Shown here in pieces: positions 11,535-58,020 of a DNA stretch of 64,000 nt. The stretch is from Salminus brasiliensis. Taxonomy: Eukaryota > Chordata > Actinopteri > Characiformes > Bryconidae. Under the pieces are notes generated by a model. That model worked only from the letters and a program-made list of their open reading frames with translations. It was not told the origin of the DNA and made no database searches. The stretch is from positions 23,999,925 through 24,063,924 of the forward strand of contig NC_132878.1 of assembly GCF_030463535.1 (NCBI RefSeq), in the 5' to 3' direction. The translations under genes were made by a program, and so were the position numbers. Position 1 is the stretch's first letter. Every line of letters begins with the position of its first letter.

Positions 11535-12196
11535 TCCGCCTATATCAGCCCCTCGGTATCGCGCCCTCCCCTGGGGCGATTCCGAGCCTCCGCCCACAGG
11601 CCCAAATAAGGACTTCCGCCTTGTTAACGTTCATGTGTTTGGTATCGGTTCATGATTCATGTTCATTTGGTTCACGTGTCTGACCTGGATTAGGGGGGTA
11701 TTGTAGAAGCCTCGACACCGCCATTCCGTGCCGAGAGTTGTATCGTCTTGGATCTCGAGGTTTCTCGAGAGGGTTTCCGTACTGTAGCAGTGTGTCGAGG
11801 CCAGCTTCTGCTCAGAGTTCACGTTCAGGAGCAGGTCACCCTGCCCATCAAGTCATCAGCGAGGCGACCCCCGCTCACGGCCAGGAGTTACTGGCAACCC
11901 ACGTCTCAGCGAGGCGACCCCCGCTCACGGCAGCGCGCTGCGGTTCCAGGTTTGGTCGGTCTAGCCGTTCTTGCTTAGTAGCTGGTCCCCCAGCTCACAC
12001 CCCAGTCCCAGGTTCGTTTTGGGTTCGTCCTCTTGTTCGCCACGTTCATGTATTTGTGGATCACTGTCGTTCATGTGTTGCTTTTTTTTTTTTGCCTAAC
12101 TTGCCCCCCTTTGTTTATCCTATCGTGTTAATAAATCTGCTTGCTTTGACCCCGTCTCTGCGAGTGTTCATCCCTCTGTGTCTGGCCTAGCCCGCC
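11535..12196 (+). mobile_element. LTR-like segment preceding the first gag remnant (unique left edge of the array)
   Basis: GC-rich, followed by repeated GTTCATG/GGTTCACG words, a direct repeat of about 25 bp at 11,857 and 11,906, a poly-T run (12,082-12,093), then AATAAA (12,130) and the gag start. This order (U3-like, polyA signal, short R/U5, gag ATG at 12,197) fits an LTR retrotransposon 5' end. The part before the poly-T occurs once in the window; the part after it begins each repeat unit. I could not fix the LTR termini or a primer-binding site. Confidence 0.55.
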
Positions 12197-13125
12197 ATGA
12201 CAGAAGTCCCGGCCGAATTCCCCCGAACAGCGGAGATGGACGCCTTGGATCAGGCTGTTCAAGGACAAGTCTTGGGGCAGCAGGAACTCCACACCCTCCA
12301 GTGTGTTTCTGGGACCGTTGGTCGCCTGGTGCAGCAACAGACGGACCAACGGCGGTGTTTCAGCATCCCAGAGAGGGGCTCATCAAGGGCGACCTGCTGC
12401 GGGTGGATCACTGTGTGCTGGAGTTTCGCTCCTTAGCTGTGTGTGATGAGTGGAGTCACGCCGCACTGGTTGCCCTGTTCCGCAATGGGTTGAGCCCCCG
12501 TTTGCAGCGACAGTTGGTGTGCCGAGGCGAGTCCCTTGTGCTGAATGAGCTCATGGCACTTGCTCCTAGGTCGCTCTACCTCCACCAGGCCCCGGGGTGC
12601 TGGGGGGCCAGTAGCTGGTGGAGAGGGGCCGGCCTATCCCGTAGCTCCCAGTCATGTCACGCAGCCTGCAGCCACCTCCGTGATGGGACCGCCGGACAGC
12701 GAACTACTCACGCCAACATCTATGCCCGAGTTCCACGCCCCCTGGTCTACGCCCATGGTCCCTACTCCGGTGGCTGCGCCCAAAGCCTCTGCTCCTGTCC
12801 CAGCAGTGGCATCTGCGTCTACTACCAGGCAAGCAGTGCCAGCTGTCCCTGTTTCAAGGTATGGTCAAGCGGTGGTGCCTGTGACTGCCCCAAGGCGTTG
12901 GTTCCAGAGCCTGCGGCTCCTCATATCGAGGCTACCTGGGGTAGCGACCCTCACCGGCCCTCGGGTAGGCCGCAAAGGCCTCAACTCACGAGACTCTTAG
13001 TTCATGGAAGTTCAGTTTTAGTCCTTGTTTGGTTTTTGTTTAAGGTCATGGTCACGTTCAGGTTCACGGTTCCACCCCACTCATGTCTTTTTGTTTTCTC
13101 ACTTGTCTGGCCTAGCCCACCATGA
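12197..13125 (+). mobile_element. Ty3/gypsy-type gag remnant, unit 1
   Basis: The frame from 12,197 begins MTEVPAEFPRTAEMDALD and stops at 12,436. The continuation is in another frame from about 12,340, with EWSHAALVALFRNGLSP and CRGESLVLNELMALAPRS, which recalls the Gag domain of fish Ty3/gypsy elements. The frameshift and the absence of zinc knuckle, protease and reverse transcriptase make it a dead fragment. It is followed by LTR-like sequence and a second copy of the gag-start context (CTAGCCCACCATGAC, near 13,113), so the element is internally rearranged. Confidence 0.7.
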
Positions 13126-14390
13126 CTTACTTTGTTAAAAATGTCAAATCACTGATCATATATTACACTTATTATAACTTAATTATTGGTGGATTTCAGA
13201 ATCATCCACTGCTTTTTATTTACAGATCTCTATAGCACAAATAATTATTTACCCTGAAAAAAAGCACATGACTAACAGAGTAAAATCAGTTCCTTCATTT
13301 TTGTAAATCCAGATTGGTTTTATATTAATTTAATATTTATTCCAGATTATGGTGACATCATTAAAGCTTTTAGTTTAAGAGGAGTAAATAAATGCAATTT
13401 AAAGCAGTAGAGTAAATTGCTATAGGGGTGTTAGTTGTAAAATATGAGGGATGGGCTGGTTAGAAAAAAATAACAATAAAATGAGGGTAAATACAGGACT
13501 GACAGGATAATATTTCATAAATATTCACAATCATTTTATTTAATTTGTGTGTAAAACAAAGTGAAAGTTAAGGGATTAAAATCAAAGGATTATTTGGCCA
13601 TTTTGACTATTAGGGATATTTATTAGTCTTGGTAAATGAGTAAATATTTATGCATTAATAGCTGCATGGTTTTAGAGGTATTTAGATCCCTCACATATGG
13701 TCCTACAATTTAGGCCCACTTGAAGCCTCCTGGTCAAAACATCCTAACCACGGCAGACGACAGTGTGTCCCCAGTGTCCTTTTTTGAAACCTAAAATATG
13801 GTCATTCTAATTAAATGACATGTTTAAAGGAGATTTGTGTCTGTCACACCTTTATCTCCACAGCTTTACACTGTTGGAGCTCCACTCTCATCATGTGGAC
13901 AGAGAAAGCAACAGAGGTTCTTCTTTAATGGGAAATGAATCTGCAAGTTTCTGGAGAATAATACACTTTTAACACACAGTATATAACTTGTCTTACAGCA
14001 ACTCACACATGTCAACACTCTTCAGGTGTGGCTTTATTGACTGTGTGACAAGATCAGTGCTGCACAGCTTGTGTTGGAGATTTGCCTGCAGGAGCAGGCC
14101 TGGACTGGACAGAGGAGCGGGGCTCAGCCTGAGAAGAAATGTGGCTCTATGAAATCTTTAGCAAATGTCCATGAAATCAAACCCAGGATGAAATCAGATC
14201 TCATCAAAGGGGCTTTGCTATTGGTACACATGTCTATTTGCTATTTAAGTGGAAGTGAACGCACACAAGCTGGTGGAAGGCACAGTAAGCCAGCAAGAGT
14301 CAAGGAATAAAAGCATCATGTCAGACTATAAACTAATGTGAAATTTACTTAAGATCACTTTCCTCACTCTATTCTCTTCAGTACAACTTT
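13126..14390. other. Unit 1 AT-rich spacer
   Basis: About 1.25 kb with no supported gene. It holds long A/T-rich stretches and, in 13,850-14,310, a better-conserved segment of higher complexity that is repeated in the other units. Short open frames (for example MLEICLQEQAWTG at 14,071) have no matching features and shift between units. Confidence 0.5.
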
Positions 14391-14396
14391 CATTAA

Positions 14397-14670
14397 ATGT
14401 ATTGACTGTTTTTGGTACTGTTTTTCAGCACTGCACCCAGTCCAGTACCTGACACATCAGTGTGTACCACCAAAGGTTCTTTAGAGTCAGAGCTATACAG
14501 AACCAGTTCTGAGTATAAACATGCTTTAAGGTCTTTAAAAGCTGTTCTGAGCTCTGTTATCCATTTAACTCTTGGGAGTGTGTGCTCCACAAGACCCATA
14601 AAGCAGCTCACCTTCCTCTTTGTTGTAGGTGCTTGGCAAGACTTTGGCACATTAAACACCACAAGCTGTT
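14397..14670 (-). mobile_element. Retroelement pol fragment (RT thumb/RNase H), unit 1
   Basis: On minus, a frame with VKWITELRTAFKDLKACL followed by VVHTDVSGTGLGAVL matches the end of reverse transcriptase and the start of RNase H of Ty3/gypsy pol. It is antisense to the gag remnant in the same unit and downstream of the kinase gene. In this unit about 44 bp (TTTAGTTTGGTCTG...) present in other units is missing. Confidence 0.65.
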
Positions 14671-14757
14671 ACACAGTAATTATTCTACAGTTCATAATTT
14701 CTGCATGAAAGGGTTGATTGATGACAGACACATTTGTAAATAACGGAACGGTTCTAT

Positions 14758-15166: not shown

Positions 15167-17757
15167 CTACAAGGGATGAACCCTTGTCGTCTTCTTCAGG
15201 ATCTGTTGGAGGGACAAAATGACAAGGATTGACCAACTGAAACATTCCTGACAAAATATTCACAGTGATTTTATGAAATCAAATCTGGGGCTGTCACGAT
15301 CTCTCACCACTCGACTCACATACCTTAAACCGGGGGAATCTCAGCCTCCTGGTTCCCTGCTTCACTGTGGGCTGTGGCAGAACAGCTGCTGCCTCCACCT
15401 CTGGCCCACGGAGCGGGGCATCCGGAGTCCCATCATCACGTCTCTGCCCAAAAGCCGAACCAGCAGGAGCTTCTGTAGAGGCAGCAGAATGATGAACACC
15501 CTGCTGGTCAGCAGAGGAGGAGTCGTGCACCATGGAGCTCCTTGTGAAGAATTGCTTTATCCTTCTTTGAAGAGACTGAGAGGCTCTACGAATTGGAGCT
15601 ACAACATGAGTGTTAGCTGCCCTTTTAACTGCAGCACAAAGTCCACCACAGCTGAAGCAGCCGTACTCCTCCACCACAACCTCCACACTTCTGCAAGTTA
15701 CACTTGCAGCAGCTCTACTGCCGTCGTCTTCTTGGAGTGGACTGACGTCTTGAGTAGGACTGCTTCCCTCATCCTGATCATCAACGGTGATCACAACAAA
15801 CCTGCCTATTACTCTGGAGACGGTACAGAAGCAATGTGGAAAATAAGTCATCATTGATTATTTACTTATTGATAGTGATACTTATTGACAGCTCTGCACA
15901 CTGAGGGACCTTTAAGTGTGTATCCTTACAACCAGTGTTGCCAGACTGACTGTTTTAATGGAGGGAGCAGAGATGGGACAACACATGGGACAAGTAAAGC
16001 ACTTAGTAAATACATTTCTATAAAATACTGTGTAACAACAAACATACCTGACTTTCTCCAAATGCTTAATAGTGCCGGTTTGGGAGGAGTGAAGATGCTG
16101 CTGACTGATCTCCTTACAGCTCTCCTCACAGAGTTTCTTCATATTTCCAAAGACATTCTCCTGTGGAGAGCTTACAGCCTCAGCTGCAGATGACTGTGCA
16201 GCCTCGCTCATTTCACTGTTGATTAAAAAACACAAGACAAATGTAGCAGAGGAACAAACACACGTCTCTGGGTAAGTTCTAATGTTCTAATACAGAACAG
16301 GCTCTTCTGTATATATAGATATAAGCCTGCAGTCTATGATCAAATTTAATTATATTCTTTAAATCAACCTGGATCTTGATACTGGAGTTCCAGCACAGTT
16401 TACTTACTGTTCTTGCCTCGGCTGCAGCCAAGGGTGCTTAGCCACCTCTGCAACTGAAGGCCGAGAGAAGGGATTGTACTGCAGCAGATGGGAGATGAAG
16501 GCTCGGCAGGGCTCCTCCACTGTGATACCTTTTGGATACCCCAAGGGTTTGCGCTGGAGCTGTATGAGGTTACGCTCATCAGAGTCATCGAAGGGCATGG
16601 TGCCGGTGACCATGATGTAAAGAATCACCCCTAGACTCCACACATCACTCTTCTTCGGATTATAGATCTCATGCATGAGCACCTCAGGTGCAGCGTAGTG
16701 TGGAGAGTAACAAAAGGTACTGCTCAGGTCGGGTAAGCCTCTCGAGTAACGTCCAAAACCAAAGTCTGTCAGTTTGACCTGGTTATCAGCAGTCAGAAGA
16801 ACATTTTCACATTTTAGGTCTCGGTGGACAAAGTTCCTCTTGTGCAGATACACCATGGCACTGAGGAGCTGAGAAAACCACACTTTGGCCTGGTCAACCG
16901 GAATGCGACGAAGCTCCTGGGTCTTCTTCAGGAGAGTTGTTGCGGCAGGCTCCATCATGATGAACACCCGTCCAGCCCGCTTCACAATTTCATGCACCTG
17001 GACAATATGAGGGTGCTTCACTGTTCTGAGGATGCGGAGCTCCCGGCTCAGAAATTTAGAAGCAAATTCAGGTGACTTATCCCTGGGGTCTATTACTTTA
17101 ATAGCCACCTGGTTGGGGTACTTTGTAGATGTGGCCAGCTTAACCGTACCGAAACTCCCTTCACCAATGTTGTCCACCACTGTGAAGCCCAAGCTAATCA
17201 GGACTTCGTCTGATGTCATTTTCTCCTGTAGAGGGAAGGTAAAGCAGAGTTAGAAGGTTTGCCCTGTGAAGTCCTGCACTGGGAGCCGCTCCATGTACAG
17301 TTTATCTAAATGATGTAATCAGTTAATCAATAAATATCATCATCATTCTTACATCTGTCTTTCTGACGTTTCTTATGACAGCTTGTAATAAATATCTTAA
17401 ATGTAATGATTTATTTATGTTTACGGTTTTATTCTTTAAACAATCAAAAGTTCAAATGCTGAAAACGAGCCGTGAGTTAATCTCCAGTAAAAAGCAGCGA
17501 TTCTGATCAGAGGCTTCATTGAGCTTCATTTGATCCTCTGATGAAGGAGCTCTGTGCTCACAAAACACAACCCTTTAATGTGGAGAGTGAAAGACAGCGC
17601 CTCGTGCTCTAAACCCAGCTGTGGTTCTAGACTCACACACACTCATTAGCATATGTGATTTGTGGTTCAGTGTTGTTGTGATCAGTAATCAATAAATGGT
17701 ACGTACCTTGTCCTGGGTGGAAGTTGAAGCAGAAGCAGAAGCAGAACCTGTGGCCAT
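15167..17757 (-). CDS. Testis-specific serine/threonine kinase, TSSK6-like, copy 1
   Basis: Exons on minus: 17757-17707, 17225-16408, 16215-16048, 15813-15324, 15202-15167; phases agree, giving 520 aa. Residues 1-17 are a Ser/Ala/Thr leader. The whole kinase domain (about 30-288) sits in one exon: glycine loop GEGSFG (38-43), lysine in VAIK (60), alpha-C Glu 79, HRDLKCEN (151-158, catalytic Asp 153), DFG (171-173), APE (196-198). The set and the PFDDSD motif are those of the TSSK family, best TSSK6, a soluble kinase of spermatids needed for histone removal and DNA condensation. The activation segment has TFCYSPHYAAPE where TSSKs carry Gly-Ser before the Tyr. Residues 290-520 form a Ser/Arg/Ala-rich tail of unknown family with four Cys and an RRAS site. 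Mammalian TSSK6 is one exon and has no such tail. Kinase call is firm; exon 5 is less sure. Confidence 0.88.
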
Positions 17758-17882
17758 GGTTCTAATGTAAGATGGCTCTAGATAATAAGAGCCTCAATAA
17801 AAATCACACCAACGTCAATCTGAACAGAACACAACTGGACAGCTGCTGGATCCTAACTGAGCCGCTGAGGGAGACCCCCCCC

Positions 17883-17918
17883 TTTTATAGACTCTGTGAC
17901 ATCATCGATATGACGTCA
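17883..17918 (-). promoter_or_regulatory. CRE + TATA core promoter of TSSK copy 1
   Basis: Reading minus: perfect cAMP-response element TGACGTCA (17,911-17,918), a near-CRE TGATGTCA (17,897-17,904), then TATAAAA (17,883-17,889) with a G tract after it, about 126 bp before the ATG. CREM/TATA arrangement is typical of post-meiotic testis genes. Confidence 0.75.
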
Positions 17919-17939
17919 CAATGGGGGAGCAGATGTGGG

Positions 17940-19051: not shown

Positions 19052-21818
19052 CTACAAGGGATGAACCCTTGTCGTCTTCTTCAGGATCTGTTGGAGGGAC
19101 AAAATGACAAGGATTGACCAACTGAAACATTCCTGACAAAATATTTACAGTGATTTTATGAAATCAAATCTGGGCTGTCACGATCTCTCACCACTCGACT
19201 CACATACCTTAAACCGGGGGAATCTCAGCCTCTTGGTTCCCTGCTTCACTGTGGGCTGTGGCAGAACAGCTGCTGCCTCCACCTCTGGCCCACGGAGCGG
19301 GGCATCCGGAGTCCCATCCTCACGTCTCTGCCCAAAAGCCGAACTAGCAGGAGCTTCTGTAGAGGCAGCAGAATGATGAACACCCTGCTGGTCGTGCACC
19401 ATGGAGCTCCTTGTGAAGAATTGCTTTATCCTTCTTCGAAGAGACTGAGAGGCTCTACGAATTGGAGCTACAACATGAGCGTTAGCTGCCCTTTTAACTG
19501 CAGCACAAAGTCCACCACAGCTGAAGCAGCCGTACTCCTCCCCCACAACCTCCACACTTCTGCAAGTTACACTTGCAGCAGCTCTACTGCCGTCGTCTTC
19601 TTGGAGTGGACTGACGTCTTGAGTAGGACTGCTTCCCTCATCCTGATCATCAACGGTGATCACAACAAACCTGCCTATTACTCTGGAGACGGTACAGAAG
19701 CAATGTGGAAAATAAGTCATCATTGATTATTTACTTATTGATAGTGATACTTATTGACAGCTCTGCACACTGAGGGACCTTTATCAGTGCTTAATCTGTA
19801 CAATACACCAAGTGTGTATCCTTAGAGCCAGTGTTACCAGACTGACTGTTTAAATGGAGGGAGCAGAGATGGGACAACACATGGGACAAGTAAAGCACTT
19901 AGTAAATACATTTCTATAAAATACTGTGTAACAACAAACATACCTGACTTTCTCCAAATGCTTAATAGTGCCGGTTTGGGAGGAGTGAAGATGCTGCTGC
20001 CTGATCTCCTTACAGCTCTCCTCACAGAGTTTCTTCATATTTCCAAAGACATTCTCCTGTGGAGAGCTTACAGCCTCAGCTGCAGATGACTGTGCAGCCT
20101 CGCTCATTTCACTGTTGATTAAAAAACACAAGACAAATGTAGCAGAGGAACAAACACACGTCTCTGGGTAAGTTCTAATGTTCTAATACAGAACAGGCTC
20201 TTCTGTATATATAGATATAAGCCTGCAGTCTATGATCAAATTTAATTATATTCTTTAAATCAACCTGGATCTTGATACTGGAGTTCCAGCACAGTTTACT
20301 TACTGTTCTTGCCTCGGCTGCAGCCAAGGGTGCTTAGCCACCTCTGCAACTGAAGGCCGAGAGAAGGGATTGTACTGCAGCAGATGGGAGATGAAGGCTC
20401 GGCAGGGCTCCTCCACTGTGATACCTTTTGGATACCCCAAGGGTTTGCGCTGGAGCTGTATGAGGTTACGCTCATCAGAGTCATCGAAGGGCATGGTGCC
20501 GGTGACCATGATGTAAAGAATCACCCCTAGACTCCACACATCACTCTTCTTCGGATTATAGATCTCATGCATGAGCACCTCAGGTGCAGCGTAGTGTGGA
20601 GAGTAACAAAAGGTACTGCTCAGGTCGGGTAAGCCTCTCGAGTAACGTCCAAAACCAAAGTCTGTCAGTTTGACCTGGTTATCAGCAGTCAGAAGAACAT
20701 TTTCACATTTTAGGTCTCGGTGGACAAAGTTCCTCTTGTGCAGATACACCATGGCACTGAGGAGCTGAGAAAACCACACTTTGGCCTGGTCAACCGGAAT
20801 GCGACGAAGCTCCTGGGTCTTCTTCAGGAGAGTTGTTGCGGCAGGCTCCATCATGATGAACACCCGTCCAGCCCGCTTCACAATTTCATGCACCTGGACA
20901 ATATGAGGGTGCTTCACTGTTCTGAGGATGCGGAGCTCCCGGCTCAGAAATTTAGAAGCAAATTCAGGTGACTTATCCCTGGGGTCTATTACTTTAATAG
21001 CCACCTGGTTGGGGTACTTTGTAGATGTGGCCAGCTTAACCGTACCGAAACTCCCTTCACCAATGTTGTCCACCACTGTGAAGCCCAAGCTAATCAGGAC
21101 TTCGTCTGATGTCATTTTCTCCTGTAGAGGGAAGGTAAAGCAGAGTTAGAAGGTTTGCTCTGTGAAGTCCTGCTGGAACAAACAGTTCATTTCATCCTGA
21201 TTAGGTTTAGATCTTTATCCTAACAGCACTTCTAATCCAAGTTCTAGCAGTTCATGAAGATTGGCTGATCTGAACAGGTGCAGCATCTCGCAGAAATATG
21301 AGTTTTCAGACCGACCCCCCCCCCCCCCCCCCCGTCTCAGACTAGAGCAGCTGATCACAGAGCCGAGTGAATCCGTTAATCAGTTAATCAATAAATATCA
21401 TCATCATTCTTACATCTGTCTTTCTGACGTTTCTTATGACAGGTTGTAATAAATATCTTAAATGTAATGATTTATTTATGTTTACGGTTTTATTCTTTAA
21501 ACAATCAAAAGTTCAAATGCTGAAAACGAGCCGCGATTTAATCTCCAGTAAAAAGGAGCAATTCTGATCAGAGGCTTCATTGAGCTTCATTTGATCCTCT
21601 GATGAAGAAGCTCTGTGCTCACAAAACACAACCCTTTAATGTGGAGAGTGAAAGACAGCGCCTTGTGCTCTAAACCCAGCTGTGGTTCTAAACTCACACA
21701 CACTCATTAGCATATGTGACTTGTGGTTCGGTGTTGTTGTGATCAGTAATCAATAAATAGTACGTACCTTGTCCTGGGTGGAAGTTGAAGCAGAAGCAGA
21801 AGCAGAACCTGTGGCCAT
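19052..21818 (-). CDS. TSSK6-like kinase, copy 2 (5-residue deletion in tail)
   Basis: Exons on minus: 21818-21768, 21121-20304, 20111-19944, 19682-19208, 19087-19052; predicted 515 aa. The kinase exon encodes a protein identical to copy 1. In exon 4, 15 nt are missing, removing SSSAD after MVHD in frame. Intron 1 (21,122-21,767) differs from copy 1: it carries a segment beginning TGGAACAAACAG and a C17-type tract (21,316-21,334) that is shared in part only with copy 7. The 3' neighbour is the truncated small gene of unit 1. Confidence 0.87.
21316..21334. repeat. Poly-C tract in intron 1 of TSSK copy 2
   Basis: A run of about 17 C, seen only in this unit. The homologous place is deleted in copy 7 and absent from the other intron type. 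Confidence 0.85.
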
Positions 21819-21949: not shown

Positions 21950-21985
21950 TTTTATAGACTCTGTGACATCATCGACATGACGTCA
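21950..21985 (-). promoter_or_regulatory. CRE + TATA core promoter of TSSK copy 2
   Basis: TGACGTCA at 21,978-21,985 and TATAAAA at 21,950-21,956 (minus). The G tract following the TATA box is expanded to about 14 G in this unit, against 7-8 in the others. Confidence 0.75.
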
Positions 21986-26417: not shown

Positions 26418-29006
26418 CTACAAGGGATGAACCCTTGTCGTCTTCTTCAGGATCTGTTGGAGGGACAAAATGACAAGGATTGACCGACTGAAACATTCCT
26501 GACAAAATATTTACAGTGATTTTATGAAATCAAATCTGGGCTGTCACGATCTCTCACCACTCAACTCACATACCTTAAACCGGGGGAATCTCAGCCTCCT
26601 GGTTCCCTGCTTCACTGCAGGCTGTGGCAGAACAGCTGCTGCCTCCACCTCTGGCCCACGGAGCGGGGCATCCGGAGTCCCATCCTCACGTCTCTGCCCA
26701 AAAGCCGAACTAGCAGGAGCTTCTGTAGAGGCAGCAGAATGATGAACACCCTGCTGGTCAGCAGAGGAGGAGTCGTGCACCATGGAGCTCCTTGTGAAGA
26801 ATTGCTTTATCCTTCTTCGAAGAGACTGAGAGGCTCTACGCATTGGAGCTACAACATGAGTGTTAGCTGCCCTTTTAACTGCAGCACAAAGTCCACCACA
26901 GCTGAAGCAGCCGTACTCCTCCCCCACAACCTCCACACTTCTGCAAGTTACACTTGCAGCAGCTCTACTGCCATCATCTTCTTGGAGTGGACTGACGTCT
27001 TGAGTAGGACTGCTTCCCTCATCCTGATCATCAACGGTGATCACAACAAACCTGCCTATTACTCTGGAGACGGTACAGAAGCAATGTGGAAAATAAGTCA
27101 TCATTGATTATTTACTTATTGATAGTGATACTTATTGACAGCTCTGCACACTGAGGGACCTTTAAGTGTGTATCCTTACAACCAGTGTTGCCAGACTGAC
27201 TGTTTTAATGGAGGGAGCAGAGATGGGACAACACATGGGACAAGTAAAGCACTTAGTAAATACATTTCTATAAAATACTGTGTAACAACAAACATACCTG
27301 ACTTTCTCCAAATGCTTAATAGTGCCGGTTTGGGAGGAGTGAAGATGCTGCTGACTGATCTCCTTACAGCTCTCCTCACAGAGTTTCTTCATATTTCCAA
27401 AGACATTCTCCTGTGGAGAGCTTACAGCCTCAGCTGCAGATGACTGTGCAGCCTCGCTCATTTCACTGTTGATTAAAAAACACAAGACAAATGTAGCAGA
27501 GGAACAAACACACGTCTCTGGGTAAGTTCTAATGTTCTAATACAGAACAGGCTCTTCTGTATATATAGATATAAGCCTGCAGTCTATGATCAAATTTAGT
27601 TATATTCTTTAAATCAACCTGGATCTTGATACTGGAGTTCCAGCACAGTTTACTTACTGTTCTTGCCTCGGCTGCAGCCAAGGGTGCTTAGCCACCTCTG
27701 CAACTGAAGGCCGAGAGAAGGGATTGTACTGCAGCAGATGGGAGATGAAGGCTCGGCAGGGCTCCTCCACTGTGATACCTTTTGGATACCCCAAGGGTTT
27801 GCGCTGGAGCTGTATGAGGTTACGCTCATCAGAGTCATCGAAGGGCATGGTGCCGGTGACCATGATGTAAAGAATCACCCCTAGACTCCACACATCACTC
27901 TTCTTCGGATTATAGATCTCATGCATGAGCACCTCAGGTGCAGCGTAGTGTGGAGAGTAACAAAAGGTACTGCTCAGGTCGGGTAAGCCTCTCGAGTAAC
28001 GTCCAAAACCAAAGTCTGTCAGTTTGACCTGGTTATCAGCAGTCAGAAGAACATTTTCACATTTTAGGTCTCGGTGGACAAAGTTCCTCTTGTGCAGATA
28101 CACCATGGCACTGAGGAGCTGAGAAAACCACACTTTGGCCTGGTCAACCGGAATGCGACGAAGCTCCTGGGTCTTCTTCAGGAGAGTTGTTGCGGCAGGC
28201 TCCATCATGATGAACACCCGTCCAGCCCGCTTCACAATTTCATGCACCTGGACAATATGAGGGTGCTTCACTGTTCTGAGGATGCGGAGCTCCCGGCTCA
28301 GAAATTTAGAAGCAAATTCAGGTGACTTATCCCTGGGGTCTATTACTTTAATAGCCACCTGGTTGGGGTACTTTGTAGATGTGGCCAGCTTAACCGTACC
28401 GAAACTCCCTTCACCAATGTTGTCCACCACTGTGAAGCCCAAGCTAATCAGGACTTCGTCTGATGTCATTTTCTCCTGTAGAGGGAAGGTAAAGCAGAGT
28501 TAGAAGGTTTGCCCTGTGAAGTCCTGCACTGGGAGCCGCTCCATGTACAGTTTATCTAAATGATGTAATCAGTTAATCAATAAATATCATCATCATTCTT
28601 ACATCTGTCTTTCTGACGTTTCTTATGACAGCTTGTAATAAATATCTTAATGTAATGATTTATTTATGTTTACGGTTTTATTCTTTAAACAATCAAAAGT
28701 TCAAATGCTGAAAACGAGCCGCGAGTTAATCTCCAGTAAAAAGCAGCGATTCTGATCAGAAGCTTCATTGAGCTTCATTTGATCCTCTGATGAAGGAGCT
28801 CTGTGCTCACAAAACACAACCCTTTAATGTGGAGAGTGAAAGACAGCGCCTCGTGCTCTAAACCCAGCTGTGGTTCTAGACTCACACACACTCATTAGCA
28901 TATGTGACTTGTGGTTCGGTGTTGTTGTGATCAGTAATCAATAAATGGTACGTACCTTGTCCTGGGTGGAAGTTGAAGCAGAAGCAGAAGCAGAACCTGT
29001 GGCCAT
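26418..29006 (-). CDS. TSSK6-like kinase, copy 3
   Basis: Exons on minus: 29006-28956, 28475-27658, 27465-27298, 27063-26574, 26453-26418; predicted 520 aa. Kinase protein identical to copies 1 and 2. The tail differs from copy 1 at a few residues (for example VGEEYG for VVEEYG, PMRRAS for PIRRAS, and FGQRRED for FGQRRDD). Intron 1 is of the copy 1 type. Confidence 0.88.
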
Positions 29007-29133: not shown

Positions 29134-29168
29134 TTTATAGACTCTGTGACATCATCGACATGACGTCA
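29134..29168 (-). promoter_or_regulatory. CRE + TATA core promoter of TSSK copy 3
   Basis: TGACGTCA at 29,161-29,168; TATAAA at 29,134-29,139 (minus). One T fewer in the TATA box than in copies 1, 2 and 7. Confidence 0.75.
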
Positions 29169-33381: not shown

Positions 33382-36001
33382 CTACAAGGGATGAACCCTT
33401 GTCGTCTTCTTCAGGATCTGTTGGAGGGACAAAATGACAAGGATTGACCAACTGAAACATTCCTGACAAAATATTTACAGTGATTTTATGACATCAAATC
33501 TGGGGCTGTCACGATCTCTCACCACTCAACTCACATACCTTAAACCGGGGGAATCTCAGCCTCCTGGTTCCCTGCTTCACTGTGGACTGTGGCAGAACAG
33601 CTGCTGCCTCCACCACTCGCCCACGGAGCGGGGCATCCGGAGTCCCATCCTCACGTCTCTGCTCAAAAGCCGAACTAGCAGGAGCTTCTGTAGAGGCAGC
33701 AGAATGATGAACACCCTGCTGGTCAGCAGAGGAGGAGTCGTGCACCATGGAGCTCCTTGTGAAGAATTGCTTTATCCTTCTTCGAAGAGAATGAGAGGCT
33801 CTACGAATTGGAGCTACAACATGAGCGTTAGCTGCCCTTTTAACTGCAGCACAAAGTCCACCACAGCTGAAGCAGCCGTACTCCTCCACCACAACCTCCA
33901 CACTTCTGCAAGTTACACTTGCAGCAGCTCTACTGCCGTCGTCTTCTTGGAGTGGACTGACGTCTTGAGTAGGACTGCTTCCCTCATCCTGATCATCAAC
34001 GGTGATCACAACAAACCTGCCTATTACTCTGGAGACGGTACAGAAGCAATGTGGAAAATAAGTCATCATTGATTATTTACTTATTGATAGTGATACTTAT
34101 TGACAGCTCTGCACACTGAGGGACCTTTATCCGTGCTTAATCTGTACAATACACCAAGTGTGTATCCTTACAACCAGTGATGCCAGACTGACTGTTTTAA
34201 TGGAGGGAGCAGAGATGGGACAACACATGGGACAAGTAAAGCACTTAGTAAATACATTTCTATAAAATACTGTGTAACAACAAACATACCTGACTTTCTC
34301 CAAATGCTTAATAGTGCCAGTTTGGGAGGAGTGAAGATGCTGTTGCCTGATCTCCTTACAGCTCTCCTCACAGAGTTTCTTCACAGTTCCGAAGACATTC
34401 TCCTGTGGAGAGCTTACAGCCTCAGCTGCAGATGACTGTGCAGCCTCGCTCATTTCACTGTTGATTAAAAAACACAAGACAAATGTAGCAGAGGAACAAA
34501 CACACGTCTCTGGGTAAGTTCTAATGTTCTAATACAGAACAGGCTCTTCTGTATATATAGATATAAGCCTGCAGTCTATGATCAAATTTAATTATATTCT
34601 TTAAATAAACCTGGATCTTGATACTGGAGTTCCAGCACAGTTTACTTACTGTTCTTGCCTCGGCTGCAGCCAAGGGTGCTTAGCCACCTCTGCAACTGAA
34701 GGCCGAGAGAAGGGATTGTACTGCAGCAGATGGGAGATGAAGGCTCGGCAGGGCTCCTCCACTGTGATACCTTTTGGATACCCCAAGGGTTTGCGCTGGA
34801 GCTGTATGAGGTTACGCTCATCAGAATCATCGAAGGGCATGGTGCCGGTGACCATGATGTAAAGAATCACCCCTAGACTCCACACATCACTCTTCTTCGG
34901 ATTATAGATCTCATGCATGAGCACCTCAGGTGCAGCGTAGTGTGGAGAGTAACAAAAGGTACTGCTCAGGTCGGGTAAGCCTCTCGAGTAACGCCCAAAA
35001 CCAAAGTCTGTCAGTTTGACCTGGTTATCAGCAGTCAGAAGAACATTTTCACATTTTAGGTCTCGGTGGACAAAGTTCCTCTTGTGCAGATACACCATGG
35101 CACTGAGGAGCTGAGAAAACCACACTTTGGCCTGGTCAACTGGAATGCGACGAAGCTCCTGGGTCTTCTTCAGAAGAGTTGTTGCGGCAGGCTCCATCAT
35201 GATGAACACCCGTCCAGCCCGCTTCACAATTTCATGCACCTGGACAATATGAGGGTGCTTCACTGTTCTGAGGATGCGGAGCTCCCGGCTCAGAAATTTA
35301 GAAGCAAATTCAGGTGACTTATCCCTGGGGTCTATTACTTTAATGGCCACCTGGTTGGGGTACTTTGTAGATGTGGCCAGCTTAACCGTACCGAAACTCC
35401 CTTCACCAATGTTGTCCACCACTGTGAAGCCCAAGCTAATCAGGACTTCGTCTGATGTCATTTTCTCCTGTAGAGGGAAGGTAAAGCAGAGTTAGAAGGT
35501 TTGCCCTGTGAAGTCCTGCACCGGGAGCCGCTCCATTTACAGTTTATCTAAATGATGTAATCAGTTAATCAATAAATATCATCATGATTCTTACATCTGT
35601 CTTTCTGGCGTTTCTTATGACAGCTTGTAATAAATATCTTAAATGTAATGATTTATTTATGTTTACGGTTTTATTCTTTAAACCATCAAAAGTTCAAATG
35701 TTAAAAAAACGAGCCGCGAGTTAATCTCCAGTAAAAAGCAGCGATTCTGATCAGAGGCTTCATTGAGCTTCATTTGATCCTCTGATGAAGGAGCTCTGTG
35801 CTCACAAAACACAACCCTTTAATGTGGAGAGTGAAAGACAGCGCCTCGTGCTCTAAACCCAGCTGTGGTTCTAGACTCACACACACTCATTAGCATATGT
35901 GACTTGTGGTTCGGTGTTGTTGTGATCAGTAATCAATAAATGGTACGTACCTTGTCCTGGGTGGAAGTTGAAGCAGAAGCAGAAGCAGAACCTGTGGCCA
36001 T
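33382..36001 (-). CDS. TSSK6-like kinase, copy 4
   Basis: Exons on minus: 36001-35951, 35467-34650, 34457-34290, 34028-33539, 33417-33382; predicted 520 aa. Kinase protein identical to copies 1-3 but the DNA differs from them at five synonymous codons. The tail carries a group of replacements shared by copies 4-6: TVKKLCEE for NMKKLCEE, FEQRRED for FGQRRED, and LRGRVVEAAA for LRGPEVEAAA. Confidence 0.88.
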
Positions 36002-36128: not shown

Positions 36129-36163
36129 TTTATAGACTCTGTGACATCATCGACATGACGTCA
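36129..36163 (-). promoter_or_regulatory. CRE + TATA core promoter of TSSK copy 4
   Basis: TGACGTCA at 36,156-36,163; TATAAA at 36,129-36,134 (minus). Confidence 0.75.
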
Positions 36164-40561: not shown

Positions 40562-43181
40562 CTACAAGGGATGAACCCTTGTCGTCTTCTTCAGGATCTG
40601 TTGGAGGGACAAAATGACAAGGATTGACCAACTGAAACATTCCTGACAAAATATTTACAGTGATTTTATGACATCAAATCTGGGGCTGTCACGATCTCTC
40701 ACCACTCAACTCACATACCTTAAACCGGGGGAATCTCAGCCTCCTGGTTCCCTGCTTCACTGTGGACTGTGGCAGAACAGCTGCTGCCTCCACCACTCGC
40801 CCACGGAGCGGGGCATCCGGAGTCCCATCCTCACGTCTCTGCTCAAAAGCCGAACTAGCAGGAGCTTCTGTAGAGGCAGCAGAATGATGAACACCCTGCT
40901 GGTCAGCAGAGGAGGAGTCGTGCACCATGGAGCTCCTTGTGAAGAATTGCTTTATCCTTCTTCGAAGAGAATGAGAGGCTCTACGAATTGGAGCTACAAC
41001 ATGAGCGTTAGCTGCCCTTTTAACTGCAGCACAAAGTCCACCACAGCTGAAGCAGCCGTACTCCTCCCCCACAACCTCCACACTTCTGCAAGTTACACTT
41101 GCAGCAGCTCTACTGCCGTCGTCTTCTTGGAGTGGACTGACGTCTTGAGTAGGACTGCTTCCCTCATCCTGATCATCAATGGTGATCACAACAAACCTGC
41201 CTATTACTCTGGAGACGGTACAGAAGCAATGTGGAAAATAAGTCATCATTGATTATTTACTTATTGATAGTGATACTTATTGACAGCTCTGCACACTGAG
41301 GGACCTTTATCCGTGCTTAATCTGTACAATACACCAAGTGTGTATCCTTACAACCAGTGATGCCAGACTGACTGTTTTAATGGAGGGAGCAGAGATGGGA
41401 CAACACATGGGACAAGTAAAGCACTTAGTAAATACATTTCTATAAAATACTGTGTAACAACAAACATACCTGACTTTCTCCAAATGCTTAATAGTGCCAG
41501 TTTGGGAGGAGTGAAGATGCTGTTGCCTGATCTCCTTACAGCTCTCCTCACAGAGTTTCTTCACAGTTCCGAAGACATTCTCCTGTGGAGAGCTTACAGC
41601 CTCAGCTGCAGATGACTGTGCAGCCTCGCTCATTTCACTGTTGATTAAAAAACACAAGACAAATGTAGCAGAGGAACAAACACACGTCTCTGGGTAAGTT
41701 CTAATGTTCTAATGCAGAACAGGCTCTTCTGTATATATAGATATAAGCCTGCAGTCTATGATAAAATTTAATTATATTCTTTAAATCAACCTGGATCTTG
41801 ATACTGGAGTTCCAGCACAGTTTACTTACTGTTCTTGCCTCGGCTGCAGCCAAGGGTGCTTAGCCACCTCTGCAACTGAAGGCCGAGAGAAGGGATTGTA
41901 CTGCAGCAGATGGGAGATGAAGGCTCGGCAGGGCTCCTCCACTGTGATACCTTTTGGATACCCCAAGGGTTTGCGCTGGAGCTGTATGAGGTTACGCTCA
42001 TCAGAATCATCGAAGGGCATGGTGCCGGTGACCATGATGTAAAGAATCACCCCTAGACTCCACACATCACTCTTCTTCGGATTATAGATCTCATGCATGA
42101 GCACCTCAGGTGCAGCGTAGTGTGGAGAGTAACAAAAGGTACTGCTCAGGTCGGGTAAGCCTCTCGAGTAACGCCCAAAACCAAAGTCTGTCAGTTTGAC
42201 CTGGTTATCAGCAGTCAGAAGAACATTTTCACATTTTAGGTCTCGGTGGACAAAGTTCCTCTTGTGCAGATACACCATGGCACTGAGGAGCTGAGAAAAC
42301 CACACTTTGGCCTGGTCAACTGGAATGCGACGAAGCTCCTGGGTCTTCTTCAGAAGAGTTGTTGCGGCAGGCTCCATCATGATGAACACCCGTCCAGCCC
42401 GCTTCACAATTTCATGCACCTGGACAATATGAGGGTGCTTCACTGTTCTGAGGATGCGGAGCTCCCGGCTCAGAAATTTAGAAGCAAATTCAGGTGACTT
42501 ATCCCTGGGGTCTATTACTTTAATGGCCACCTGGTTGGGGTACTTTGTAGATGTGGCCAGCTTAACCGTACCGAAACTCCCTTCACCAATGTTGTCCACC
42601 ACTGTGAAGCCCAAGCTAATCAGGACTTCGTCTGATGTCATTTTCTCCTGTAGAGGGAAGGTAAAGCAGAGTTAGAAGGTTTGCCCTGTGAAGTCCTGCA
42701 CCGGGAGCCGCTCCATTTACAGTTTATCTAAATGATGTAATCAGTTAATCAATAAATATCATCATGATTCTTACATCTGTCTTTCTGGCGTTTCTTATGA
42801 CAGCTTGTAATAAATATCTTAAATGTAATGATTTATTTATGTTTACGGTTTTATTCTTTAAACCATCAAAAGTTCAAATGTTAAAAAAACGAGCCGCGAG
42901 TTAATCTCCAGTAAAAAGCAGCGATTCTGATCAGAGGCTTCATTGAGCTTCATTTGATCCTCTGATGAAGGAGCTCTGTGCTCACAAAACACAACCCTTT
43001 AATGTGGAGAGTGAAAGACAGCGCCTCGTGCTCTAAACCCAGCTGTGGTTCTAGACTCACACACACTCATTAGCATATGTGACTTGTGGTTCGGTGTTGT
43101 TGTGATCAGTAATCAATAAATGGTACGTACCTTGTCCTGGGTGGAAGTTGAAGCAGAAGCAGAAGCAGAACCTGTGGCCAT
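40562..43181 (-). CDS. TSSK6-like kinase, copy 5
   Basis: Exons on minus: 43181-43131, 42647-41830, 41637-41470, 41208-40719, 40597-40562; predicted 520 aa. All exons are exactly 7,180 bp from those of copy 4. Tail differs from copy 4 by VITIDD for VITVDD and VGEEYG for VVEEYG. Confidence 0.88.
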
Positions 43182-43308: not shown

Positions 43309-43343
43309 TTTATAGACTCTGTGACATCATCGACATGACGTCA
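43309..43343 (-). promoter_or_regulatory. CRE + TATA core promoter of TSSK copy 5
   Basis: TGACGTCA at 43,336-43,343; TATAAA at 43,309-43,314 (minus). Confidence 0.75.
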
Positions 43344-46875: not shown

Positions 46876-46879
46876 TATT

Positions 46880-47741: not shown

Positions 47742-50361
47742 CTACAAGGGATGAACCCTTGTCGTCTTCTTCAGGATCTGTTGGAGGGACAAAATGACAA
47801 GGATTGACCAACTGAAACATTCCTGACAAAATATTTACAGTGATTTTATGACATCAAATCTGGGGCTGTCACGATCTCTCACCACTCAACTCACATACCT
47901 TAAACCGGGGGAATCTCAGCCTCCTGGTTCCCTGCTTCACTGTGGACTGTGGCAGAACAGCTGCTGCCTCCACCACTCGCCCACGGAGCGGAGCATCCGG
48001 AGTCCCATCCTCACGTCTCTGCTCAAAAGCCGAACTAGCAGGAGCTTCTGTAGAGGCAGCAGAATGATGAACACCCTGCTGGTCAGCAGAGGAGGAGTCG
48101 TGCACCATGGAGCTCCTTGTGAAGAATTGCTTTATCCTTCTTCGAAGAGAATGAGAGGCTCTACGAATTGGAGCTACAACATGAGCGTTAGCTGCCCTTT
48201 TAACTGCAGCACAAAGTCCACCACAGCTGAAGCAGCCGTACTCCTCCCCCACAACCTCCACACTTCTGCAAGTTACACTTGCAGCAGCTCTACTGCCGTC
48301 GTCTTCTTGGAGTGGACTGACGTCTTGAGTAGGACTGCTTCCCTCATCCTGATCATCAATGGTGATCACAACAAACCTGCCTATTACTCTGGAGACGGTA
48401 CAGAAGCAATGTGGAAAATAAGTCATCATTGATTATTTACTTATTGATAGTGATACTTATTGACAGCTCTGCACACTGAGGGACCTTTATCCGTGCTTAA
48501 TCTGTACAATACACCAAGTGTGTATCCTTACAACCAGTGATGCCAGACTGACTGTTTTAATGGAGGGAGCAGAGATGGGACAACACATGGGACAAGTAAA
48601 GCACTTAGTAAATACATTTCTATAAAATACTGTGTAACAACAAACATACCTGACTTTCTCCAAATGCTTAATAGTGCCAGTTTGGGAGGAGTGAAGATGC
48701 TGTTGCCTGATCTCCTTACAGCTCTCCTCACAGAGTTTCTTCACAGTTCCGAAGACATTCTCCTGTGGAGAGCTTACAGCCTCAGCTGCAGATGACTGTG
48801 CAGCCTCGCTCATTTCACTGTTGATTAAAAAACACAAGACAAATGTAGCAGAGGAACAAACACACGTCTCTGGGTAAGTTCTAATGTTCTAATACAGAAC
48901 AGGCTCTTCTGTATATATAGATATAAGCCTGCAGTCTATGATCAAATTTAATTATATTCTTTAAATAAACCTGGATCTTGATACTGGAGTTCCAGCACAG
49001 TTTACTTACTGTTCTTGCCTCGGCTGCAGCCAAGGGTGCTTAGCCACCTCTGCAACTGAAGGCCGAGAGAAGGGATTGTACTGCAGCAGATGGGAGATGA
49101 AGGCTCGGCAGGGCTCCTCCACTGTGATACCTTTTGGATACCCCAAGGGTTTGCGCTGGAGCTGTATGAGGTTACGCTCATCAGAATCATCGAAGGGCAT
49201 GGTGCCGGTGACCATGATGTAAAGAATCACCCCTAGACTCCACACATCACTCTTCTTCGGATTATAGATCTCATGCATGAGCACCTCAGGTGCAGCGTAG
49301 TGTGGAGAGTAACAAAAGGTACTGCTCAGGTCGGGTAAGCCTCTCGAGTAACGCCCAAAACCAAAGTCTGTCAGTTTGACCTGGTTATCAGCAGTCAGAA
49401 GAACATTTTCACATTTTAGGTCTCGGTGGACAAAGTTCCTCTTGTGCAGATACACCATGGCACTGAGGAGCTGAGAAAACCACACTTTGGCCTGGTCAAC
49501 TGGAATGCGACGAAGCTCCTGGGTCTTCTTCAGAAGAGTTGTTGCGGCAGGCTCCATCATGATGAACACCCGTCCAGCCCGCTTCACAATTTCATGCACC
49601 TGGACAATATGAGGGTGCTTCACTGTTCTGAGGATGCGGAGCTCCCGGCTCAGAAATTTAGAAGCAAATTCAGGTGACTTATCCCTGGGGTCTATTACTT
49701 TAATGGCCACCTGGTTGGGGTACTTTGTAGATGTGGCCAGCTTAACCGTACCGAAACTCCCTTCACCAATGTTGTCCACCACTGTGAAGCCCAAGCTAAT
49801 CAGGACTTCGTCTGATGTCATTTTCTCCTGTAGAGGGAAGGTAAAGCAGAGTTAGAAGGTTTGCCCTGTGAAGTCCTGCACCGGGAGCCGCTCCATTTAC
49901 AGTTTATCTAAATGATGTAATCAGTTAATCAATAAATATCATCATGATTCTTACATCTGTCTTTCTGGCGTTTCTTATGACAGCTTGTAATAAATATCTT
50001 AAATGTAATGATTTATTTATGTTTACGGTTTTATTCTTTAAACCATCAAAAGTTCAAATGTTAAAAAAACGAGCCGCGAGTTAATCTCCAGTAAAAAGCA
50101 GCGATTCTGATCAGAGGCTTCATTGAGCTTCATTTGATCCTCTGATGAAGGAGCTCTGTGCTCACAAAACACAACCCTTTAATGTGGAGAGTGAAAGACA
50201 GCGCCTCGTGCTCTAAACCCAGCTGTGGTTCTAGACTCACACACACTCATTAGCATATGTGACTTGTGGTTCGGTGTTGTTGTGATCAGTAATCAATAAA
50301 TGGTACGTACCTTGTCCTGGGTGGAAGTTGAAGCAGAAGCAGAAGCAGAACCTGTGGCCAT
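47742..50361 (-). CDS. TSSK6-like kinase, copy 6
   Basis: Exons on minus: 50361-50311, 49827-49010, 48817-48650, 48388-47899, 47777-47742; predicted 520 aa. Protein as copy 5 (one base differs near 47,992, which changes only the opposite-strand frame). Exactly 7,180 bp from copy 5. Confidence 0.88.
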
Positions 50362-50488: not shown

Positions 50489-50523
50489 TTTATAGACTCT
50501 GTGACATCATCGACATGACGTCA
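50489..50523 (-). promoter_or_regulatory. CRE + TATA core promoter of TSSK copy 6
   Basis: TGACGTCA at 50,516-50,523; TATAAA at 50,489-50,494 (minus). Confidence 0.75.
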
Positions 50524-54145: not shown

Positions 54146-54149
54146 TATT

Positions 54150-55008: not shown

Positions 55009-57325
55009 CTACAAGGGATGAACCCTTGTCGTCTTCTTCAGCATCTGTTGGAGGGACAAAATGACAAGGATTGACCAACTGAAACATTCCTGACAAAATA
55101 TTTACAGTGATTTTATGAAATCAAATCTGGGGCTGTCACGATCTCTCACCACTCAACTCACATACCTTAAACCGGGGGAATCTCAGCCTCCTGGTTCCCT
55201 GCTTCACTGTGGGCTGTGGCAGAACAGCTGCTGCCTCCACCTCTGGCCCACGGAGCGGGGCATCCGGAGTCCCATCCTCACGTCTCTGCTCAAAAGCTGA
55301 ACTAGCAGGAGCTTCTGTAGAGGCAGCAGAATGATGAACACCCTGCTGGTCAGCAGAGGAGGAGTCGTGCACCATGGAGCTCCTTGTGAAGAATTGCTTT
55401 ATCCTTCTTCGAAGAGAATGAGAGGCTCTACGAATTGGAGCTACAACATGAGTGTTAGCTGCCCTTTTAACTGCAGCACAAAGTCCACCACAGCTGAAGC
55501 AGCCGTACTCCTCCACCACAACCTCCACACTTCTGCAAGTTACACTTGCAGCAGCTCTACTGCCGTCGTCTTCTTGGAGTGGACTGACGTCTTGAGTAGG
55601 ACTGCTTCCCTCATCCTGATCATCAACGGTGATCACAACAAACCTGCCTATTACTCTGGAGACGGTACAGAAGCAATGTGGAAAATAAGTCATCACTGAT
55701 TATTTACTTATTGATAGTGATACTTATTGACAGCTCTGCACACTGAGGGACCTTTATCCGTGCTTAATCTGTACAATACACCAAGTGTGTATCCTTAGAG
55801 CCAGTGTTGCCAGACTGACTGTTTTAATGGAGGGAGCAGAGATGGGACAACACATGGGACAAGTAAAGCACTTAGTAAATACATTTCTATAAAATACTGT
55901 GTAACAACAAACATACCTGACTTTCTCCAAATGCTTAATAGTGCCAGTTTGGGAGGAGTGAAGATGCTGCTGCCTGATCTCCTTACAGCTCTCCTCACAG
56001 AGTTTCTTCACAGTTCCGAAGACATTCTCCTGTGGAGAGCTTACAGCCTCAGCTGCAGATGACTGTGCAGCCTCGCTCATTTCACTGTTGATTAAAAAAC
56101 ACAAGACAAATGTAGCAGAGGAACAAACACACGTCTCTGGGTAAGTTCTAATGTTCTAATGCAGAACAGGCTCTTCTGTATATATAGATATAAGCCTGCA
56201 GTCTATGATAAAATTTAATTATATTCTTTAAATGAACCTGGATCTTGATACTGGAGTTCCAGCACAGTTTACTTACTGTTCTTGCCTCGGCTGCAGCCAA
56301 GGGTGCTTAGCCACCTCTGCAACTGAAGGCCGAGAGAAGGGATTGTACTGCAGCAGATGGGAGATGAAGGCTCGGCAGGGCTCCTCCACTGTGATACCTT
56401 TTGGATACCCCAAGGGTTTGCGCTGGAGCTGTATGAGGTTACGCTCATCAGAGTCATCGAAGGGCATGGTGCCGGTGACCATGATGTAAAGAATCACCCC
56501 TAGACTCCACACATCACTCTTCTTCGGATTATAGATCTCATGCATGAGCACCTCAGGTGCAGCGTAGTGTGGAGAGTAACAAAAGGTCCTGCTCAGGTCG
56601 GGTAAGCCTCTCGAGTAACGTCCAAAACCAAAGTCTGTCAGTTTGACCTGGTTATCAGCAGTCAGAAGAACATTTTCACATTTTAGGTCTCGGTGGACAA
56701 AGTTCCTCTTGTGCAGATACACCATGGCACTGAGGAGCTGAGAAAACCACACTTTGGCCTGGTCAACTGGAATGCGACGAAGCTCCTGGGTCTTCTTCAG
56801 GAGAGTTGTTGCGGCAGGCTCCATCATGATGAACACCCGTCCAGCCCGCTTCACAATTTCATGCACCTGGACAATATGAGGGTGCTTCACTGTTCTGAGG
56901 AATGCGGAGCTCCCGGCTCAGAAATTTAGAAGCAAATTCAGGTGACTTATCCCTGGGGTCTATTACTTTAATGGCCACCTGGTTGGGGTACTTTGTAGAT
57001 GTGGCCAGCTTAACCGTACCGAAACTCCCTTCACCAATGTTGTCCACCACTGTGAAGCCCAAGCTAATCAGGACTTCGTCTGATGTCATTTTCTCCTGTA
57101 GAGGGAAGGTAAAGCAGAGTTAGAAGGTTTGCTCTGTGAAGTCCTGCTGGAACAAACAGTTTATTTCATCGTGACTAACAGCACTTCTAATACAAGTTCT
57201 AGCAGTTCATGAAGATTGGCTGATCTGAACAGGTGCAGCATCTCGCAGAAATATGGAGTTTTCATGGTACGTACCTTGTCCTGGGTGGAAGTTGAAGCAG
57301 AAGCAGAAGCAGAACCTGTGGCCAT
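55009..57325 (-). pseudogene. TSSK6-like kinase, copy 7, frameshifted
   Basis: Exons on minus: 57325-57275, 57095-56277, 56084-55917, 55655-55166, 55044-55009. One extra base (GAGGAATGCGG for GAGGATGCGG, about 56,901) shifts the frame after RELRI, residue 82, before the catalytic loop; the new frame stops about 13 codons later. Downstream the kinase frame is open but has a Ser to Arg change in the activation segment (DLSRTF for DLSSTF), the only replacement seen in any kinase domain here. Exon 5 begins ATG where the others have ATC. Intron 1 is only 179 bp, from a deletion. Promoter CRE and TATA are intact. A sequencing error is the alternative to a true frameshift. Confidence 0.8.
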
Positions 57326-57451
57326 GGTTCTAATGTAAGATGGCTCTAGATAATAAGAGCCTCAATAAAAATCACACCAACGTCAATCTGAACAGAACAC
57401 AACTGGACAGCCGCTGGATCCTAACTGAGCCGCTGAGGGAGACTCCCCCCC

Positions 57452-57487
57452 TTTTATAGACTCTGTGACATCATCGACATGACGTCA
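57452..57487 (-). promoter_or_regulatory. CRE + TATA core promoter of TSSK copy 7
   Basis: TGACGTCA at 57,480-57,487; TATAAAA at 57,452-57,458 (minus). Confidence 0.7.
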
Positions 57488-57544
57488 CAATGGGGGAGCA
57501 GATGTGGGTCACCTTTAATAATTTCTGTATTTCTACATTTATTT

Positions 57545-58020
57545 TTACAATTATTTATTTCCACAATTATTTAGTTTAGATTGCTACTTTATTCTTTTCT
57601 GTATTTCTGTTTATTGCTTTTGTATTTTTTATTTTATATATTTTTATATTTCTCCATTTTCTTATGTATTTCTATATTTCCCCATTTCTGCTTTTTTATT
57701 TCTATATTTCTATTTCTTAATGTATTTATTTCTGAATTCAAAAATTTCTACATTTACTTTCATCTTTTTTTCTCATTATTTTTTTTACACTAAGTCATTT
57801 CTGTATTTCTACATTTATGTTTATCTTTTTAAACATTTATTGATTTCTGTATTGATACATTTTTATTTGTGTATTCATTTCTATATTTCTACATTTCTTT
57901 ATTTATGTACATTCGTATTTACATATGTAAATCATGGGAAGTATAGTCCAGTGCATCCACAGAGCCTGGAGGTAAACCCAGGAGTGTAACATTTAGATTT
58001 CTGCCATTATTTTTCATTTA
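57545..58020. repeat. T-rich low-complexity tract at the right end of the array
   Basis: Runs of TTTCTATATTTCTACATTT-like words resembling, but not collinear with, the spacer seen at 17,940-18,215. The similarity to the array units ends near 57,545, so this is the array edge. No gene seen. Confidence 0.6.

Follow-up and report, generated by a model that had tools for sequence, protein, structure and literature searches.

What kind of unit has been repeated seven times at a single locus of a fish genome, one gene or two, and why has a sperm-type kinase been multiplied there at all? The locus lies in a 64,000-nucleotide stretch of Salminus brasiliensis DNA, C1:23999925-24063924 of an assembly of 1,066,335,885 bases in 103 contigs ("the window"; positions below are counted from its first letter). 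The answer argued for here, which we hold to be quite probable, is that the window contains seven copies of one five-exon gene resembling the testis-specific kinase TSSK6, and that this gene belongs to an expanded, selected family of putative spermatid kinases.

Self-alignment of the window delimits a direct-repeat array with ends at ~12079 and ~57546, in agreement with an original prediction made from the letters of the stretch; its count of seven kinase copies, six of them intact and with identical proteins, is also confirmed. All seven lie on the minus strand, copies 1-6 share one and the same 271-amino-acid kinase translation, and copy 7, at the edge of the array, has its kinase frame broken by a 1-bp insertion and carries one amino-acid change. 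The predicted unit length of ~7.18 kb holds exactly for two of the six intervals and not for the others: kinase-to-kinase spacings are 3896, 7354, 6992, 7180, 7180 and 7268 bp, and unit 2 is short by ~2.6 kb. Units U4-U6 differ from one another by ~0.2% (~99.8% alike); divergence is 1.6-1.9% between U1-U3 and U4-U6, 1.4-1.9% among U1-U3, and 3.8-5.3% for U7, the right end of which aligns poorly. The direct repeats, shared variants and partial homogenisation of the array are signs of unequal exchange. The first intron of copies 1-6 holds an insert of ~400-450 bp that is absent from copy 7 (57147-57265, compared with 21173-21760); copy 2 retains parts of both states, so that copy 7 may show the older one. 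Retroelement pieces, an RNase H-like fragment and an open reading frame (ORF) that we read as gag-like, have been co-amplified with the units (12079-14668 and equivalents).

The TSSK6-like identity originally proposed for the amplified kinase is supported by its best sequence match in the PDB, TSSK6 of sperm doublet microtubules, at 304 bits (the next kinase scores 163); no other TSSK is among the 60 PDB matches listed. Foldseek, run with the predicted structure of a paralog (locus L044), ranks mouse TSSK6 of the sperm doublet microtubule first in the PDB (TMt 0.92), and the window kinase keeps its catalytic motifs: VAIK at 38, HRDLKCEN at 132, DFG at 152 and APE at 177. A mouse TSSK6 query shares 50-55% identity over the full-length kinase domain with the best 143 of 1007 candidates, and among these 143 no member stood out as a lone true TSSK6 ortholog outside the expansion. 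A query with a provisional TSSK3 sequence found the same family again at 38-45% and nothing above 45% (143 scored of 780); a TSSK split by an intron could escape this search. In a tree, 33 fish rows form one clade (99/95) beside mammal TSSK6, a weak grouping because the sole outgroup is that provisional TSSK3, which is long-branched.

Where the kinase ends is the crux of the gene model. Its ORF closes with CAAGAACAGTAAGT, and the TAA sits within a consensus 5' splice donor (CA/GTAAGT); left unspliced, a GTAAG donor in this phase inevitably supplies a stop codon, and any ORF scan will truncate the gene at that point. In copy 5, the 3' splice site following a 192-base intron keeps the frame, and two more introns and a short last exon follow. 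The resulting five-exon model, the first exon of which (MATGSASASASTSTQDK) adjoins the promoter motifs, is open in all six intact copies (520 amino acids in five of them, 515 in copy 2), with a predicted tail of ~230 amino acids after the kinase domain. The tail closes with a short peptide ([IF]LK...L and stop) that recurs in the window copy and in six of six paralogs inspected. AlphaFold2, applied to the L044 kinase and tail together (13-row alignment), yields a kinase modelled with confidence and a tail that is mostly disordered, its one helix, at 357-393 (block predicted local distance difference test, pLDDT, ~40-60), being basic in character and of low confidence; Pfam gave no match for two tail-exon translations of unit 1.

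The array is one part of something much larger. At least 241 TSSK6-like kinase-domain places, a few of them broken, are found in the species' own assembly (239, and 2 more through the TSSK3 query), the count being the union of a window-kinase query, motif scans and three further queries; the list of 239 covers at least 36 locations on 20 contigs. The window-kinase query was scored for the best 142 of 1132 first-look candidates, and places outside the window are 59-67% identical to it. A scored alignment exists for 220 of the 239, the other 19 being identified by motif only (five of these, on C16, are scored by the TSSK3 query). Large clusters lie at C5:32.4-37.6 Mb and C8:28-34 Mb (34 members each), C3:19.9-21.3 Mb (30), C2:32.6-32.9 Mb (22), C12:29.6 Mb (20), C18:31.7-32.4 Mb (16) and C26:32.6-32.7 Mb (14). 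Broken members counted include window copy 7 and L054, which has stops; left out are 14 pattern-only sites (13 on C28, 1 on C13), two of which, L053 and L056, have no match at E 1e-20 and appear as broken relatives at a laxer cut. The true family size is probably higher, because each search scored its best candidates only and because 31 of 150 scored tail exons have no listed kinase.

A common promoter layout links the window to its relatives. Every copy has a single exact cAMP-response element (CRE), TGACGTCA, with a TATA box and then exon 1 behind it, and these seven are all the exact sites that the window contains; a first-order Markov model fitted to the window leads one to expect 0.35 such sites on average, with a maximum of 2 over 40 runs. 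In 17 of 20 fetched paralog loci, the sequence upstream of the kinase contains a CRE-like motif (no more than one mismatch) and a TATA box at most 75 bp apart; the controls gave 1/20 on the reverse strand and 0/20 downstream. According to PMC3091680, CREM-tau is active in the haploid spermatid and this palindrome is bound by CREM; salmon sperm mRNAs have been reported, in PMC6122464, to have CRE-like elements in their 5' regions. We infer spermatid expression, a predicted property, for the window copies and for the family.

Selection on the encoded protein is seen most clearly in the kinase exon, which in copies 1-6 has 5 synonymous changes over ~231 sites and no nonsynonymous change over ~582, where its own synonymous rate would lead one to expect 12.6 (P ~0.002); five kinase bases, all synonymous, separate copies 1-3 from copies 4-6. 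The tail, compared over all seven copies, has 17 nonsynonymous changes over 469 sites, 8 synonymous changes over 185, no stop, and one in-frame 15-bp deletion. The contrast between kinase (six copies) and tail (seven copies) is significant (Fisher P 0.009), and the single tail indel stands against 5.5 expected from nearby noncoding sequence (P 0.027); the kinase has no indel in copies 1-6, the one listed event being the insertion in copy 7. Comparisons between clusters give a median ratio of nonsynonymous to synonymous rates (dN/dS) of 0.36 over 36 kinase pairs (0.23-0.53) and of 0.58 over 28 pairs of tail exon 4 (0.34-0.84). Within U1-U3 the kinase differs at 0 of 816 columns, as against 88 of 2970 elsewhere (part of the latter poorly aligned), an invariance suggestive of local gene conversion in addition to selection.

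These numbers bear directly on the proposition that unequal crossing over multiplied the copies neutrally and left them redundant, with neither dosage nor a new role selected. Tandem arrays that contain retroelement pieces expand easily, the edge copy of the array is broken, as are the relatives L053, L054 and L056, and the tail evolves near neutrality inside the array; all of this such a proposition would accommodate. The absence of amino-acid change from six kinase copies argues against it, as does the state of the family at large: 123 of the 142 kinases scored with the window query have no internal stop, and 17 of the 19 that do are C5 exons with one TAA, eight of which, rescored with the mouse query in matches ending at query residue 268, have none. 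Neutral accumulation is considered unlikely.

Some relatives depart from the one-kinase plan. Two kinase exons precede a single tail in L031, L036, L037 and L038, and three in L049; exon lengths at these loci are compatible with serial splicing, the first exons have not been located, and the downstream kinase exons of L036, L037, L038 and L049 have no start ATG. In L036 the two kinase exons and tail exon 3 join in frame, and the exons of L049 join into an open frame of 1012 codons that comprises three kinase domains and the tail. Mutually exclusive use of the exons would fit as well. The second domain of L036 reads HRDLTCSN and LTGFRFG and is probably inactive. The predicted chains (kinase, degenerate kinase and tail in L036; three kinase domains and tail in L049) can be cited for an expansion through male germ-line conflict, by sperm competition or by a driver and its suppressors, in which extra or dead kinase domains would compete with active copies; this is distinctly unlikely as an account of the family. 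Drive as such is no more than conceivable.

The original prediction had paired each kinase with a divergent small gene. A second coding segment is indeed present in every unit; a unit of two co-amplified genes is not supported. Two separate genes might be argued for from the kinase ORF's own stop with an ATTAAA after it, and from tail exons with an ATG near their start. Set against this are the position of that stop inside a consensus donor and the in-frame junction of kinase and tail in the six intact copies. All 20 fetched paralog loci have tail sequence downstream of their kinase (E <1e-14 in 19; weak in L050, E 0.004), and 18 of them have a donor-like GT at the kinase end (two GTAATT and one GTTAGT among them). 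In the remaining two, L044 and L047, a single ORF runs through kinase and tail with no intron between. Across the genome, 150 tail exons were scored out of 656 first-look candidates, and for 119 of them the kinase list has a site at most 3.5 kb upstream on the same strand (one C13 site outside the kinase count being used as a kinase site). A separate small gene has been set aside on these grounds, splice phase, fused paralogs and co-location with the kinase, and the segment most likely encodes the C-terminal tail of the kinase itself; that it is an independent gene is very unlikely. The fused intronless ORFs of L044 (C1:82.5 Mb) and L047 (C8:31.4 Mb) are immediately preceded by a TATA box and a pair of exact CREs. 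Tail exons with no listed kinase nearby occur at C16:20.78-20.86 Mb, C5:20.4 and 28.7 Mb, C2:9.4 and 12.2 Mb, and C18:26.5 Mb, and are probably further family members left unscored by the kinase searches.

That misassembly or haplotype duplication has inflated the copy number, as the ~0.2% divergence of U4-U6 and the exact 7180-bp kinase spacing that they have in common might suggest, is highly improbable in view of private changes in the units (among U4-U6, 22 of the 6204 columns outside the kinase vary; U2 is truncated and U7 frameshifted) and of similar arrays on many contigs.

Several observations weigh against a selected family of five-exon spermatid kinase genes. The exon model derives from sequence alone, and an unspliced transcript using the ATTAAA would encode a kinase-only protein. 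The promoter layout is not universal: L032 and L035 are without the CRE-TATA pair, L033 has an exact CRE with no TATA box near it, and the match at L043 lies 2.3 kb away and may be due to chance, which would leave 16/20. In body cells, CRE motifs are used by CREB as well. Some of the 31 tails without a listed kinase may be orphans, the kinase list being a lower bound, and 19 of the 239 listed places rest on a motif with no scored alignment from three of the kinase queries. Inside the array, a tail dN/dS of ~0.84 signifies weak constraint.

The selected family of spermatid kinases nevertheless remains the reading that we prefer, and the following chain of events can be proposed for it. The copies would have arisen by unequal crossing over, U4-U6 being the newest three. 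A CREM-type activator would drive their transcription in spermatids, after meiosis, and exon 2 would specify a catalytically competent kinase, to judge from its motifs. By analogy with mammalian TSSK6, the product may phosphorylate flagellar or nuclear-remodelling substrates, or act on the sperm axoneme, the tail probably targeting or regulating the kinase. Selection on amino acids, perhaps joined by gene conversion, would hold the array's kinase uniform while the tails drift. Loss of Tssk6 in the mouse leads to infertility and axoneme defects, heterozygotes being subfertile (PMC13066092), and zebrafish tssk6 figures in PMC12759076 and PMC11607696 as a marker of elongated spermatids or spermatozoa. 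Dosage selection is possible, because the kinase is unchanged in six copies and because of that heterozygous phenotype.

A sperm kinase that is needed, in a dose-sensitive manner, for male fertility in the mouse (PMC13066092) is represented here by a family whose kinase-domain places number over 240 in a single genome. The family combines a new architecture (the tail, kinase exons in tandem, and one or more kinase domains that are likely dead) with a common promoter type, and constitutes a directly testable system for asking why spermatid genes multiply. It also carries a warning: an ORF scan or a gene finder may halt at the donor's in-frame TAA and deliver a short "TSSK6-like" gene with a stray "small gene" beside it.

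The coordinates of the array are collected below. On its left, an exon of the neighbouring gene has as its best PDB match ODAD2 (ARMC4), a dynein-docking, flagellar protein. The originally noted juxtaposition of amplified kinase and flagellar gene is therefore real in the sense that an ODAD2-like exon adjoins the array; a family in at least 36 locations makes this neighbourhood one of many, which may mean nothing, and a single special cluster is not supported. Minisatellites flank the ODAD2-like exons at 843-1076 and 8660-8956 (35 bp and 55/11 bp). The right-hand neighbour (59494-61017, minus strand) has FIIND/UPA and CARD exons, the CARD exon best matching PDB entry 4irl, whose chain is named as similar to vertebrate guanylate-binding protein and which we take to be of zebrafish origin. 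The flanking genes, and the repeats as we read them, point to a teleost and not to a mammal. Scans of the window for tRNAs and Rfam families found none.

Table. Features of the TSSK6-like array (window coordinates), and two multi-kinase loci elsewhere in the genome
Feature	Position	Strand	Basis or remark
Tandem array, seven TSSK6-like kinase gene units U1-U7	12079..57546	.	self-comparison of window
Copy 1 CRE (TGACGTCA), TATA box beside	17911..17918	.	motif search
Copy 1 exon 1 (MATGSASASASTSTQDK)	17707..17757	-	exon model
Copy 1 exon 2, kinase domain	16408..17225 (kinase copy 16404-17219)	-	
Copy 1 exon 3, tail	16048..16215	-	
Copy 1 exon 4, tail	15324..15813	-	
Copy 1 exon 5, tail end with stop	15167..15202	-	
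Copy 2 CRE	21978..21985	.	
Copy 2 exon 1	21768..21818	-	
Copy 2 exon 2, kinase domain	20304..21121 (kinase copy 20300-21115)	-	
Copy 2 tail exons 3-5	19052..20111 (19944-20111, 19208-19682, 19052-19087)	-	15-bp in-frame deletion
Copy 3 CRE	29161..29168	.	
Copy 3 exon 1	28956..29006	-	
Copy 3 exon 2, kinase domain	27658..28475 (kinase copy 27654-28469)	-	
Copy 3 tail exons 3-5	26418..27465 (27298-27465, 26574-27063, 26418-26453)	-	
Copy 4 CRE	36156..36163	.	
Copy 4 exon 1	35951..36001	-	
Copy 4 exon 2, kinase domain	34650..35467 (kinase copy 34646-35461)	-	
Copy 4 tail exons 3-5	33382..34457 (34290-34457, 33539-34028, 33382-33417)	-	
Copy 5 CRE	43336..43343	.	
Copy 5 exon 1	43131..43181	-	
Copy 5 exon 2, kinase domain	41830..42647 (kinase copy 41826-42641)	-	ends CA/GTAAGT
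Copy 5 tail exons 3-5	40562..41637 (41470-41637, 40719-41208, 40562-40597)	-	
Copy 6 CRE	50516..50523	.	
Copy 6 exon 1	50311..50361	-	
Copy 6 exon 2, kinase domain	49010..49827 (kinase copy 49006-49821)	-	
Copy 6 tail exons 3-5	47742..48817 (48650-48817, 47899-48388, 47742-47777)	-	
Copy 7 CRE	57480..57487	.	
Copy 7 exon 1	57275..57325	-	
Copy 7 exon 2, kinase domain	56277..57095 (kinase copy 56273-57089)	-	broken by 1-bp insertion
Copy 7 tail exons 3-4, open	55166..56084 (55917-56084, 55166-55655)	-	exon 5 starts at 55044
Multi-kinase loci	L036 C8:1.04 Mb; L049 C12:29.6 Mb		

How does the family compare with what is known? A carp sex quantitative trait locus contains TSSK6 (PMC4880943), and an abalone paper (PMC6905558) mentions a species-specific clade of five TSSK6-like sequences labelled gastropod. 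Of the literature matches listed, none describes a large expansion of TSSK6-like genes in a fish. The species name attached to the five-sequence clade is, we take it, that of a cichlid fish, the gastropod label notwithstanding. In mammals TSSK6 (SSTK) is known as one gene per genome, and its product is short (273 amino acids in PDB entries). The Salminus kinase resembles it in its full-length kinase domain, with the best PDB match in both sequence and fold, and differs in its predicted 520 amino acids encoded by five exons, in the N-terminal exon and the tail, in its abundance, and in the two or three kinase exons of some loci. CREM-driven spermatid promoters likewise combine a CRE with a nearby TATA box and first exon; here, by contrast, the paired motif layout is copied across a whole family. 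The mouse Slx/Sly genes and the Smok kinases of the t haplotype are multicopy spermatid families linked to conflict, and are likewise amplified genes of likely post-meiotic expression (Smok also being kinases), whereas the present family occupies 20 contigs of a fish genome and has no known transmission distortion. A parallel in scale is offered by the large fish-specific expansions of the zebrafish NLR and pim kinase families, which likewise run to very large numbers of tandemly clustered genes on several chromosomes; what has been multiplied in Salminus is neither an immune receptor nor a pim kinase but a kinase of the sperm type.

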